The translations under genes were made by a program, and so were the position numbers. A stretch of 64,000 bases of DNA, taken from NCBI RefSeq assembly GCF_029714425.1, contig NZ_CP121668.1:7399501-7463500 (forward strand), in the 5' to 3' direction. The notes under the pieces were generated by a model. That model had not been told where the DNA came from. It saw only the letters and a list, made by a program, of their open reading frames with translations, and searched no databases. Each line of letters begins with the position of its first letter. Positions within the stretch are counted from its first letter, which is position 1. This document shows, piece after piece, positions 45,327 through 48,298 of the stretch. This DNA is from Bradyrhizobium sp. CB2312 (lineage in GTDB: Bacteria; Pseudomonadota; Alphaproteobacteria; Rhizobiales; Xanthobacteraceae).

Positions 45327-45393
45327 GCGTTAGTGGAGCTACTCCCCCGCCCACTTGTCCGGCGCGATTTCCATGCTAGGCTGGACGCACAGA

Positions 45394-45467
45394 TGGGGAT
45401 GGAGTCCCCCGACAACCGCCCGGCGGCTCAGATTGTACCTGGACCGTAATGGGCTGATGACTCCTGC
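45394..45467 (+). promoter_or_regulatory. Fluoride riboswitch (crcB RNA) aptamer
   Basis: The architecture of the known fluoride aptamer is complete. ggggatggagtccccc (45394-45410, one extra c) forms the first stem, where gggg pairs with cccc. ggagtc (45401-45406) also pairs with gactcc (45459-45464) as the second helix. gacaaccgccc precedes a variable stem-loop, and gggctgatgactcctgc closes (45451-45467), with gccc/gggc pairing. This matches the pattern of the crystallised Thermotoga aptamer (gat, aac and ctgat conserved joints). Genes downstream include two fluoride channels, the family's expected targets, which settles the assignment. Confidence 0.93.
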
Positions 45468-45517
45468 TTGAGGTGGGGCAATCATTGAGCCTCCGCCTTT
45501 GGCGGGAGCATGGACAG

Positions 45518-45540
45518 ACCCGCCGATGGCGGGTTTTTTG
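45518..45540 (+). terminator. Intrinsic terminator of the riboswitch expression platform
   Basis: acccgcc gat ggcgggt followed by tttttt: a 7-bp GC-rich stem with a U tract, 50 bp after the aptamer and before the first gene, as expected for transcriptional control. An upstream ggcggg (45501-45506) can pair with cccgcc (45519-45524) and would then block the terminator. The same ggcggg can alternatively pair with ctccgcc (45491-45497). The direction of switching (ON with fluoride) is inferred from the known family. Confidence 0.82.
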
Positions 45541-45568
45541 TTGCCTGAAGCCCGACGAAGGAGAAGGC

Positions 45569-46774
45569 GTGACGACGACACCGAATGCTGCGCGCAGCGC
45601 GTTGCCCAGGGGGATCTGGGTGCTCGGCTTCGTCTCGATGCTGATGGACGTCTCCTCCGAGATGATCCACGCACTGCTGCCGGTCTATCTCGTCACCGTG
45701 CTCGGCGCCTCCACGCTCACCGTCGGCTTCATCGAGGGCGTCGCGGAGGCGACCGCCTCGATCACCAAGATCTTTTCGGGCGCACTGTCCGACTGGCTCG
45801 GCCGCCGCAAGCTGCTCGCCGCCCTCGGCTATGGGCTGGCCGCGATGACGAAGCCGCTCTTCCCGCTCGCCCCCAGCGTCGGATGGCTGGTCGCAGCGCG
45901 CTTCATCGACCGGGTCGGCAAGGGCATTCGCGGTGCACCGCGGGATGCGCTGATCGCCGACATAGCGCCTGCAGGCCTGCGCGGCGCGAGCTTCGGCCTG
46001 CGGCAGTCGCTCGACACCATCGGCGCCTTCGTCGGGCCGCTCGCGGCGATCGGCTTGATGTGGTGGACGGCGGATAATTTCACCCTCGTGTTCTGGATGG
46101 CCGTGCTGCCGGCCTTCCTGTCCTTCGCCCTGATCGCGCTCGCGGTCCACGAGCCGGAGCCGGACCCGAGCCGGGAGCCCGCGACCAATCCGCTGAATCT
46201 GACGGCGATGCGGCAGCTCGGATCGGTGTACTGGCGCGTCGTCGCGGTCGGCGTCGTCTTCACGCTGGCCCGCTTCAGCGAGGCCTTCCTGATCCTCCGC
46301 GCGCAGAACATTGGGCTCAATGCGATGTGGGTGCCGGCGGTGCTGGTGCTGATGAACATCACCTACGCGCTGTCGGCCTATCCGGCCGGCGTGCTCTCCG
46401 ACCGGATCAACCGGACCGCCCTGCTCGCGCTCGGCCTCCTCTTTCTTGCCGGCGCCGACCTCGCGCTCGCCTTGCTGCCGAGTCTTGGGGGCCTCGCGCT
46501 CGGCGTCGTGCTGTGGGGGCTGCACATGGGATTGACGCAAGGCCTGCTCTCGGCCCAGGTCGCCGACGCTGCGCCTCCGAGCCTGCGCGGCACCGCCTTC
46601 GGCTATTTCAACCTGTTCACGGGGATTGCCTTGCTCGCCGCAAGCGTGATCGCCGGCGCGCTGTGGGATGCCTATGGTCCTGCGGGCACGTTCCTCGCCG
46701 GGCTCGGCTTCGCGCTGGTGGCGCTCGTGGGGCTGCTCACTGTGGGCAACGGCCTCGTCGCGGAGGACAAGTGA
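45569..46774 (+). CDS. MFS transporter, first gene of the fluoride-riboswitch operon
   Basis: 401 residues from the GTG at 45569, chosen for its aaggagaagg site and because upstream frames run through the terminator. Twelve transmembrane helices; motif A is G-A-L-S-D-W-L-G-R-R-K-L-L-A and the central loop is A-G-V-L-S-D-R-I-N-R. M-D-V-S-S-E-M-I-H-A-L-L-P-V-Y in helix 1 is typical of a widespread bacterial MFS group of unknown substrate. Its stop overlaps the crcB start (TGATG), so the genes are translationally coupled. Being directly under a fluoride riboswitch, it may export a fluoride-linked or anion substrate; this is inference. Confidence 0.88.
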   Translation: MTTTPNAARSALPRGIWVLGFVSMLMDVSSEMIHALLPVYLVTVLGASTLTVGFIEGVAEATASITKIFSGALSDWLGRRKLLAALGYGLAAMTKPLFPLAPSVGWLVAARFIDRVGKGIRGAPRDALIADIAPAGLRGASFGLRQSLDTIGAFVGPLAAIGLMWWTADNFTLVFWMAVLPAFLSFALIALAVHEPEPDPSREPATNPLNLTAMRQLGSVYWRVVAVGVVFTLARFSEAFLILRAQNIGLNAMWVPAVLVLMNITYALSAYPAGVLSDRINRTALLALGLLFLAGADLALALLPSLGGLALGVVLWGLHMGLTQGLLSAQVADAAPPSLRGTAFGYFNLFTGIALLAASVIAGALWDAYGPAGTFLAGLGFALVALVGLLTVGNGLVAEDK

Positions 46775-47163
46775 TGCTGAGCGGAGTGATCGCGATCGTG
46801 ATCGGCAGCGTGCTCGGCGGCTGCGCACGCTATTTCGTCTCCGGCGCGATCGCCCGGCGGATGGGCGAGACGTTTCCGTGGGGCACCATGACCATCAACG
46901 TCACCGGCGCCTTCCTGATCGGCATCTTCGGCGCGCTGGCAACGCATCCCGGCTCGGTGTTCGCCGCGCCCAATCCCTGGCTATTCGCGGTGACCGGCTT
47001 CCTCGGCTGCTACACCACGGTGTCCTCGTTCAGCCTGCAAACGCTGACGCTCGCCCGCAACGGCGAGCCGATGCACGCGCTCGGCAATGTCGTGTTCTCG
47101 GTCGGGCTCTGCCTCGCCGCCGTCAGTTGCGGCTTCCTGCTCGCGGACAGTTTTGGAGGCTAA
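46774..47163 (+). CDS. crcB: CrcB/Fluc fluoride channel subunit 1
   Basis: 129 residues with four transmembrane helices. Landmarks are G-G-C-A-R-Y near the N-terminus, P-W-G-T-M-T-I-N-V-T-G-A-F-L-I-G (the conserved N-x-x-G) and T-G-F-L-G-C-Y-T-T-V-S-S-F-S (the G-x-x-G-x-x-T-T-F/S-S-F sodium/phenylalanine region). CrcB/Fluc proteins are dual-topology channels that let fluoride leave the cytoplasm. A second copy follows after 6 bp, so the two may form a heterodimer. Confidence 0.93.
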   Translation: MLSGVIAIVIGSVLGGCARYFVSGAIARRMGETFPWGTMTINVTGAFLIGIFGALATHPGSVFAAPNPWLFAVTGFLGCYTTVSSFSLQTLTLARNGEPMHALGNVVFSVGLCLAAVSCGFLLADSFGG

Positions 47164-47169
47164 CGGCAG

Positions 47170-47598
47170 ATGAAGTCCCCCTCCTCCGCCGAGCGCTGGC
47201 GCACCGCGACGCTCTATGCCTGGGTGGCCGCCGGCAGCATCATTGGCGGGCTGACGCGCTACCTGGTCGGGCTCGCGCTCGACACCGGGCCCGGCTTCCC
47301 CATCGCGACGCTGTTCATCAACGCCACGGGCTCGCTGATCATCGGCTTCTACGCGGCGCTGACCGGCCCCGACGGCCGCGTGCTGGCGCGGCCCGAGCAC
47401 CGGCAATTCGTGATGACCGGGTTCTGCGGCGGCTACACCACCTTCTCCACTTTCAGCCTGGAAACCTTCCGCCTGTTCCACGGCGGCATGAAATATACGG
47501 CGCTGGCCTATATCGCCGCGTCGGTCGTCTGCTGGCTGGTGTCGGTTTGGCTCGGCCATATGCTGGCGAGCCGCTATAATCGCCTGAAAAGGAGCTGA
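47170..47598 (+). CDS. crcB: CrcB/Fluc fluoride channel subunit 2
   Basis: 142 residues, four transmembrane helices. It shows G-G-L-T-R-Y, F-P-I-A-T-L-F-I-N-A-T-G-S-L-I-I-G and T-G-F-C-G-G-Y-T-T-F-S-T-F-S-L-E, the canonical Fluc blocks. The two copies differ clearly in sequence, with a longer charged N-terminus here (K-S-P-S-S-A-E-R-W-R), so they are not a recent duplication. Tandem divergent crcB genes in some bacteria are thought to encode oppositely oriented halves of one channel. DUF190 begins 2 bp after its stop. Confidence 0.93.
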   Translation: MKSPSSAERWRTATLYAWVAAGSIIGGLTRYLVGLALDTGPGFPIATLFINATGSLIIGFYAALTGPDGRVLARPEHRQFVMTGFCGGYTTFSTFSLETFRLFHGGMKYTALAYIAASVVCWLVSVWLGHMLASRYNRLKRS

Positions 47599-47600
47599 CT

Positions 47601-47942
47601 ATGCAGATTCCCAATCAGGCGGTTTCGCTCCGGATCTTCATCGGCGAGAGCGACCATTATGACGGCAAGCCGCTTTATGAAGCGATCGTGACGACGGCGC
47701 GCGAGCGGCACCTCGCCGGCGCGACCGTGCTGCGTGGCCCCATGGGGTTCGGCAAATCGAGCCGACTGCACACTTCCAAAATCCTGCGGCTGTCCGAGGA
47801 CCTGCCGCTCCTGATCGAGATCGTCGACAGCGAGGACAACATCAACGCATTCCTGCCCATCCTGGATGGCATGATGTCGAGCGGCCTGATCACCTTGGAG
47901 AAGGTGCAGGTCCTGCAATATGGTGCGAAGGCCGCGAGCTGA
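47601..47942 (+). CDS. DUF190 protein of the fluoride operon
   Basis: 113 residues. Typical DUF190: R-I-F-I-G-E-S-D-H-Y-D-G-K-P-L-Y-E-A-I-V near the N-terminus, A-G-A-T-V-L-R-G-P-M-G-F-G in the middle, and L-P-L-L-I-E-I-V-D-S-E-D-N-I, a PII-like ferredoxin-like fold. DUF190 genes are often beside crcB in many genomes. A signalling or gating role for the channel has been suggested by structure but is not established. Last gene of the operon. Confidence 0.9.
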   Translation: MQIPNQAVSLRIFIGESDHYDGKPLYEAIVTTARERHLAGATVLRGPMGFGKSSRLHTSKILRLSEDLPLLIEIVDSEDNINAFLPILDGMMSSGLITLEKVQVLQYGAKAAS

Positions 47943-47986: not shown

Positions 47987-48298
47987 ATGAACGACACCGT
48001 CACGACGCCGAAAACCAAAACCAAGACCAAGACCAAGGTCGAGCGGCCGCGGCTGCACAAGGTCATCCTGATCAACGACGACTACACGCCGCGCGAATTC
48101 GTGACCATGGTCCTGAAGGCCGAATTCCGCATGACCGAGGATCAGGCCTACAAGGTGATGATCACCGCGCACAAGCTCGGCGCCTGCGTGGTCGCCGTGT
48201 TCACCAAGGACGTCGCCGAGACCAAGGCGACGCGCGCCACCGACGCCGGCCGCGCCAAGGGCTATCCGCTGCTGTTCACCACGGAGCCGGAGGAATAG
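47987..48298 (+). CDS. clpS: ClpS N-degron adaptor protein
   Basis: 103 residues. The ClpS core is complete: V-I-L-I-N-D-D-Y-T-P-R-E-F-V (Asn-Asp-Asp substrate pocket), T-A-H-K-L-G-A-C-V-V-A-V-F-T-K-D, and E-T-K-A-T-R-A-T-D-A. ClpS hands N-degron substrates to ClpA for degradation by ClpP. The N-terminus contains a run of alternating Thr-Lys (T-K-T-K-T-K-T-K) from a six-base repeat, and clpA is not adjacent. It follows the fluoride operon by 44 bp but is probably independent. Confidence 0.93.
   Translation: MNDTVTTPKTKTKTKTKVERPRLHKVILINDDYTPREFVTMVLKAEFRMTEDQAYKVMITAHKLGACVVAVFTKDVAETKATRATDAGRAKGYPLLFTTEPEE

Follow-up and report, generated by a model that had tools for sequence, protein, structure and literature searches.

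The closest described systems are crcB operons headed by a fluoride riboswitch (Rfam family RF01734). In the passages covered of Weinberg et al. (PMC2864571), partner genes of the crcB motif include those for K+ and Cl− transport, mutS and formate hydrogen lyase. The corresponding passages of a 2024 review (PMC11139923) name exporters, Na+/H+ antiporters, enolase and others, with the antiporters as the next commonest riboswitch-associated class after exporters, and describe Fluc and CLC-F as the two kinds of protein on which bacterial fluoride export rests. In Enterobacter cloacae FRM, according to part of PMC5533749, a riboswitch-controlled six-gene operon combines crcB with accessory genes (ppaC, uspA, eno, gpmA and orf5249), all of which add to resistance. 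Here we describe a fluoride operon of Bradyrhizobium sp. CB2312, found in a 64,000-nucleotide (nt) stretch of contig NZ_CP121668.1 (the window). It has the same aptamer family, a terminator and crcB downstream; unlike the described operons, and unlike that of E. cloacae FRM, its first gene encodes a transporter of the major facilitator superfamily (MFS). This MFS gene is probably a genuine, lineage-specific member of the fluoride regulon, drawn from a transporter family of toxic-ion islands.

The term ‘MFS’ is absent from the main texts of PMC2864571, PMC11139923, PMC5533749 and a 2020 riboswitch review (PMC7266159), and ‘major facilitator’ is also absent from the first two. An MFS gene behind a fluoride riboswitch was not found in the literature passages covered, although it may be in the list of Baker et al. 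2012; PMC12595759, in which fluoride riboswitch, crcB and major facilitator all occur, lay outside their scope. Within this literature, the first-place transporter in a fluoride-riboswitch operon is so far unrecognised.

The operon and its surroundings consist of the following features:

45355 to 45382, plus strand: candidate promoter, TTGTCC, 16 nt, TAGGCT, read by eye; the transcription start would fall at the aptamer.
45386 to 45473, plus strand: fluoride riboswitch aptamer, RF01734 (cmscan, 50.1 bits, gathering cut-off 34, E 6.8e-11).
45501 to 45509, plus strand: GGCGGGAGC, a possible antiterminator from folding, which can pair with the aptamer 3′ strand CTCCTGC (off state).
45518 to 45539, plus strand: intrinsic terminator, ACCCGCC-GAT-GGCGGGT followed by a T-run, in the interval between aptamer and MFS gene.
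45569 to 46774, plus strand: MFS transporter, 401 amino acids, GTG start behind GGAG (PF07690, 160.5 bits, cut-off 33.4).
46774 to 47163, plus strand: CrcB1, a Fluc subunit, ATG at 46774, with TTVSSF in place of TTFSTF (PF02537, 88.9 bits, cut-off 32.9; NF010799, 220.7 bits; both scans begun at 46777).
47170 to 47598, plus strand: CrcB2, a Fluc subunit, with TTFSTF (PF02537, 97.6 bits).
47601 to 47942, plus strand: DUF190 protein (PF02641, 139 bits; solved relatives PH1503 and TM0021).
47987 to 48298, plus strand: clpS (PF02617), the next gene after 44 nt, not counted in the fluoride operon.

The initial annotation had placed a fluoride riboswitch and terminator ahead of closely packed MFS, crcB, crcB and DUF190 genes, and the Rfam and Pfam scores bear this out. 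The packing also holds in the window: the MFS stop and CrcB1 start overlap as TGATG, and the gaps between CrcB1 and CrcB2 and between CrcB2 and DUF190 are 6 and 2 nt. The TGATG overlap is not general, being found in just 3 of 45 genus genomes (the window's, G250 and G349), while in the rest the crcB start is preceded by a short spacer. The operon's start had been set at 45394, which is inside the riboswitch region; the aptamer begins 8 nt earlier, at 45386. The candidate promoter stretch was kept in most of the aligned leaders visible in the part of the alignment viewed, and clpS follows the fluoride genes in genus loci L061–L089. RF01734 was found once in the window's genome, a single contig of 9.78 Mb, at the MFS operon. 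An artefact was ruled out, as the riboswitch scores well above its cut-off and the riboswitch frame is conserved.

The pairing of riboswitch and MFS gene was surveyed in 195 Bradyrhizobium genomes. Riboswitch searches that spanned more than 40 genomes used stricter filters, with which weak matches are lost. A fluoride riboswitch match was present in 145 of the 195 genomes (143 above the cut-off, two with sub-cut-off matches alone) and an MFS relative at E ≤1e-100 in 146 (148 copies). An MFS with 84% or higher identity to that of the window was present in 97 genomes, and close relatives, where named, were Bradyrhizobium. The riboswitch lay on the same strand directly upstream of the MFS gene in 95 of these 97 copies, 86 by listed coordinates (less than 300 nt upstream) and nine by cmscan of fetched stretches (L142–L150), making the MFS gene, by its position, a fluoride regulon gene in most close relatives. 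Counted from the riboswitch, the MFS gene came first in 96 of the 145 riboswitch-bearing genomes. The two exceptions among the 97 copies were G421, where a contig break splits the locus and a riboswitch sits on another contig, 110 nt short of its end, and G349, where the aptamer is gone and the terminator and operon are still there. The latter locus (L140) is a natural aptamer loss, in which low expression is expected unless read-through is high. Among the matches listed at lower identity, the pairing was seen in one of six copies at 76–81% (G399), none of 26 at 70–75%, none of nine at 66–68% and none of 10 at 57–60%; three of the 66–68% copies, all spaced identically, have a riboswitch some 5 kb beyond the MFS gene.

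Selection on the operon was measured as the ratio of non-synonymous to synonymous substitution rates (dN/dS), using only copies with an aligned length equal to the window's. The median dN/dS was 0.123 for the MFS gene (11 pairs), 0.130 for CrcB1 (30), 0.159 for CrcB2 (14) and 0.069 for DUF190 (23). Purifying selection acts on the MFS gene much as it does on the channel genes.

In equilibrium folding of the window's leader, the aptamer 3′ strand CTCCTGC paired with a downstream GCGGGAG with a probability of 0.9996 and the terminator formed with 0.997. When the aptamer was reserved in the folding, the CTCCTGC/GCGGGAG pairing fell to 0.30. Among 45 genus leaders (43 from the survey plus G1137 and G1120, two further genus genomes), the exact GGCGGGAGC was present in 40 and the terminator pattern in all, including the leader that lost its aptamer. 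A fluoride-on switch that would act by co-transcriptional antitermination is plausible.

The genes behind the MFS vary more. The order crcB-crcB-DUF190 was found in 37 of the 45 genus genomes and a single crcB in the other eight, in the same place behind the riboswitch and MFS gene; by locus the figures are 38 dual and eight single of 46, with G349 counted twice. The single-crcB loci seem to fall in at least two places of the MFS tree. The riboswitch–MFS frame is thus steadier than the crcB module and survives exchange of crcB. In the 38 dual loci, CrcB1 always carried TTVSSF and CrcB2 carried TTFSTF (21 loci, like the window's) or TTFSAF (17 loci), while CrcBs of the single type had TTFSTF in 11 of 11 loci, as does the solved Fluc 5a40. 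Because CrcB1 was without one phenylalanine of TTFSTF in every locus examined, we infer that the two proteins form an asymmetric, heterodimeric Fluc. The locus resembles known heterodimeric Fluc pairs in having neighbouring crcB genes with diverged motifs, and differs in that its host is Gram-negative; in part of PMC11139923, heterodimeric Flucs are described as considerably rarer in Gram-negatives. Of the operon genes measured in the genus, DUF190 shows the lowest dN/dS, and DUF190 beside crcB recurs in G207, G637, G1039, Ideonella and Candidatus Accumulibacter.

Beyond the genus, the search covered genomes of the order, class and phylum; 80 non-genus genomes with an MFS relative were examined after exclusion of a 35% paralogue in G229. 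A crcB gene lay within 6 kb of the MFS gene in four of the 80, where 0.287 would be expected (Poisson P 2.3e-4, from 84 crcB matches, a few below the family cut-off, and rounded genome sizes); this enrichment is a guide only, because resistance islands tend to cluster and the genomes cannot be treated as independent. The four arrangements differ. G207 has MFS-DUF190-crcB-crcB, of which no second copy was found in its genus (1 of 12 genomes), and G450 has an apparently overlapping MFS-crcB pair. In G637 the MFS gene precedes a 39.5-bit riboswitch, followed by an Na/H exchanger, crcB and DUF190, all on one strand, while in G1039 crcB is 2.8 kb away on the opposite strand. A further pairing was found on a plasmid of Candidatus Manganitrophus (Nitrospirota), where a 43.7-bit riboswitch is followed by a CLC-F gene and then, 265 nt on, by the MFS gene. 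The start codon of this CLC gene is approximate, and its product has all three CLC-F signatures, GNNLI, GREGT and GEVTP (given as GNNLI/GMGLI, GREGT/V and GEVTP in the passages covered of PMC11139923).

A second set comprised the 80 best of 591 loci, ranked by closeness to the Manganitrophus MFS and mostly from beta- and gammaproteobacteria. It held one crcB-DUF190 pair, 2.3–2.6 kb off the MFS gene (Candidatus Accumulibacter, L310; 1 of 80), and one CLC-F and one riboswitch, both at Manganitrophus itself, the source of the query. Among 13 plasmid regions, ChrB-MFS-RND in Bradyrhizobium sp. SK17 is followed at about 5 kb by riboswitch-crcB, and Ideonella has crcB-DUF190 about 4 kb from the MFS gene. 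From the MFS tree it is likely, though not certain, that the MFS gene and fluoride genes were paired several times independently.

Some Bradyrhizobium relatives carry the MFS gene apart from crcB. In a subclade at 76–78% identity (G391, G258, G412 and G433), the MFS gene lies among other neighbours with no adjoining crcB. With a covariance model made from 27 aptamers, a fluoride-riboswitch-like element was found directly before the MFS gene in L125 (5047–5111, 30.2 bits) and L124 (5893–5956, 24.2 bits), and a weak match only in L126 (5200–5263, 11.0 bits, E 0.086); L127 had no credible element by this model. A terminator-like hairpin was retained in L125 and L126. Rfam's own model gave no fluoride match in these subclade leaders. 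The elements of L125, L124 and L126 deviate from the consensus at core positions and are thus decayed or variant riboswitches, which may sense something else. They indicate that riboswitch and MFS gene have been kept as one cassette even where crcB is absent.

The wider family of the MFS gene lies mainly in other surroundings. Neighbours were taken from 105 loci, among them plasmids and part of the genus loci, with a simple open reading frame picker, which gave 62 same-strand upstream neighbours and none for 43 loci. Downstream, PAP2 phosphatases made up 4 of 33 and diaminopimelate epimerases 5 of 33, and annotated neighbours at plasmid loci included cation efflux, multicopper oxidase and RND genes. 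The ChrB-MFS pairs of chromate and metal islands have the same MFS subfamily, 65–71% identical to the window's; unlike the window, those examined have no directly attached riboswitch or crcB. On plasmids L159, L160, L161, L163 and L164, ChrB upstream of this subfamily forms a recurring chromate-island module, with a small gene between ChrB and MFS in L161 and L164 and PAP2 phosphatases after the MFS gene in L159 and L160. In G187, a chrB-a RNA (RF03078, 76.4 bits; L137, 6212–6294) and an MFS relative are divergently oriented. That the whole MFS family is specific to fluoride was ruled out, as most relatives lie elsewhere and ChrB is a commoner neighbour.

The protein itself has a modelled, confident MFS fold (predicted local distance difference test, 89.7), nearest to YajR, MFSD10, NorA and LmrP among many ties. 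By Pfam it is an MFS protein and not a CLC, and hence not CLC-F. Among solved proteins, the nearest to it in sequence is NorA (E 1.7e-8), and none of the 17 NCBIfam models listed reached its cut-off (TIGR00880, 52.8 vs 131). NorA and YajR, of the MFS drug-antiporter type, are about 19% identical and have a different gene context, and the YajR entry is longer (453 residues). D75, R115, R125 and R145 were invariant in 125 of 125 MFS relatives, which suggests a defined polar cargo. Eight residues are specific to the fluoride branch, mostly at 198–214 and near the C-terminus, and are uninformative on cargo.

The reading we favour, at about an even chance, is that the MFS is a proton-coupled exporter working beside CrcB, which would remove a second, toxic and probably anionic product of fluoride stress and not fluoride itself. 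In its favour are the riboswitch–MFS pairing across the genus and its persistence through crcB exchange, the riboswitch-like leaders of the crcB-free subclade, the purifying selection on the MFS gene, the relatives in other fluoride clusters, the crcB enrichment outside the genus and the invariant charged residues. In this proposal, fluoride entering as hydrogen fluoride (HF) would bind the aptamer, whose 3′ strand would then no longer be free to trap the GCGGGAG segment. Transcription would pass the terminator and all genes would be made together. CrcB1 and CrcB2 would form the asymmetric heterodimeric channel, and the MFS, by analogy with NorA-type antiporters, would be driven by the proton gradient. 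Its cargo may be a small charged toxicant or stress product common to fluoride and oxyanion stress, because the MFS family recurs in chromate, metal and fluoride islands.

Several results weigh against this reading. Conservation within a single genus does not count as independent evidence. In G382, an MFS copy of 81% identity occupies the same chromosomal position, after clpS, and has neither riboswitch nor crcB. In the leader, pairing of the antiterminator with the terminator 5′ arm reached just 0.0008 at equilibrium with the aptamer reserved, and the terminator stayed at 0.996. Outside the genus, crcB was not near the MFS gene in 76 of the 80 genomes, and of the 19 that have a fluoride riboswitch, G637 alone has it near the MFS gene. 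The second set of best 80 of 591 loci showed no fluoride enrichment, with 78 of the 80 free of fluoride genes within 6 kb, and a related member of the Manganitrophaceae (L252) has an MFS 95% identical to that of Manganitrophus and no CLC-F, crcB or riboswitch within the examined stretch. The commonest same-strand upstream neighbour of MFS relatives was the chromate protein domain ChrB_N (9 of 62). In the 126-row MFS tree, built without three short fragments (L174, L176 and L190), the fluoride-operon label needs at least five changes, of which well-supported branches force only two. Finally, comparison of folds did not distinguish exporter from importer and indicated no substrate.

Of the other explanations, the one that survives best, though unlikely, is that the MFS is a partner in pH or ion homeostasis, acting by cation/proton antiport in place of the Na+/H+ antiporters often found with fluoride riboswitches. 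The frequency of such antiporters in the passages covered of PMC11139923 fits this idea, as do the Na/H exchanger between MFS and crcB in G637, another after a riboswitch in G281, and the lack of any such antiporter among the window's operon genes. However, G637 has both genes, so that they are not simple substitutes, and the ChrB contexts do not obviously need cation/proton antiport.

Next in likelihood, and also improbable, is that the MFS gene is a passenger caught between riboswitch and crcB, co-expressed with no role in fluoride resistance. The crcB-free copy of G382 at the same spot fits a passenger. Furthermore, few relatives outside the genus have a fluoride context (4 of 80 genomes; 2 of 80 loci), and the Bradyrhizobium pairing could be a single event. 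A passenger is harder to reconcile with retention in 95 of 97 copies under purifying selection, with survival through crcB exchange, or with the four other lineages in which the MFS has fluoride-gene neighbours in a different order.

Two related proposals would make fluoride itself, or a complex of it, the cargo. In the broader, which we consider improbable, the subfamily would be a third class of fluoride-resistance transporter, a proton-driven exporter of fluoride or anionic fluoro-complexes such as aluminium fluoride (expected in acid soils), repeatedly recruited into fluoride regulons and sometimes run by a riboswitch without crcB. In the other, which ranks just below it in likelihood, the MFS would export fluoride or a fluoro-metal complex and so add a third class to the exporters Fluc and CLC-F. 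The first place behind the riboswitch, the occurrence with either Fluc or CLC-F systems, and the subclade with an MFS gene, a riboswitch-like leader and no crcB are consistent with a fluoride exporter. Against it, crcB always follows the MFS gene in the 45 examined genus genomes, most of the MFS family has no fluoride context, and the crcB-free leaders deviate at core positions. Invariant charged residues are unusual for a promiscuous pump, and several are invariant here even in distant relatives; together with the NCBIfam result, this makes it very improbable that the MFS is a multidrug pump of broad range, which fluoride would induce for general protection against stress, despite NorA being the closest solved relative and NorA, LmrP and YajR being close folds.

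The initial annotation had suggested a fluoride- or anion-linked accessory transporter, which is partly supported. Within the genus that suggestion stands, with nearly all close copies headed by the riboswitch; it does not extend to the family. Because the genus link is strong and most outside relatives lie elsewhere, the family is not specific to fluoride and this branch is tied to it. Recurrence in other genomes, raised in the same annotation, was found in four other lineages (G207, G450, G637 and Candidatus Manganitrophus), where fluoride genes adjoin the MFS gene, and was rare overall. The link had been said to be coincidental if most relatives lay away from fluoride genes and loss of the MFS left fluoride tolerance unchanged. 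The first half of this holds for relatives outside the genus: crcB was within 6 kb in only 4 of 80 genomes and 1 of 80 loci, and ChrB was the commoner neighbour.

The survey also turned up genomes crowded with fluoride riboswitches: G288 (L153, L154 and L156) with 11 RF01734 matches, G150 (L151 and L152) with eight and G281 (L155) with four. Their surroundings include NADH-dehydrogenase/hydrogenlyase-type subunits, mutS, enolase, an Na/H exchanger, crcB and DUF190. In G288, two same-strand fluoride riboswitches about 340 nt apart (L153, 16012–16474) lead into a gene of the cyclopropane-fatty-acid synthase type; a formate/nitrite transporter gene lies immediately upstream.

Time and again, the genes located behind fluoride riboswitches have shown which targets fluoride harms. 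With the MFS gene first in line in 96 of 145 riboswitch-bearing genomes, and a relative beside CLC-F in another phylum, there is now a concrete gene whose cargo is to be identified. Acid soil, in which HF and aluminium fluoride probably arise, is a common habitat of Bradyrhizobium. The finding could therefore matter for the fitness of symbionts and for engineered organofluorine degradation.

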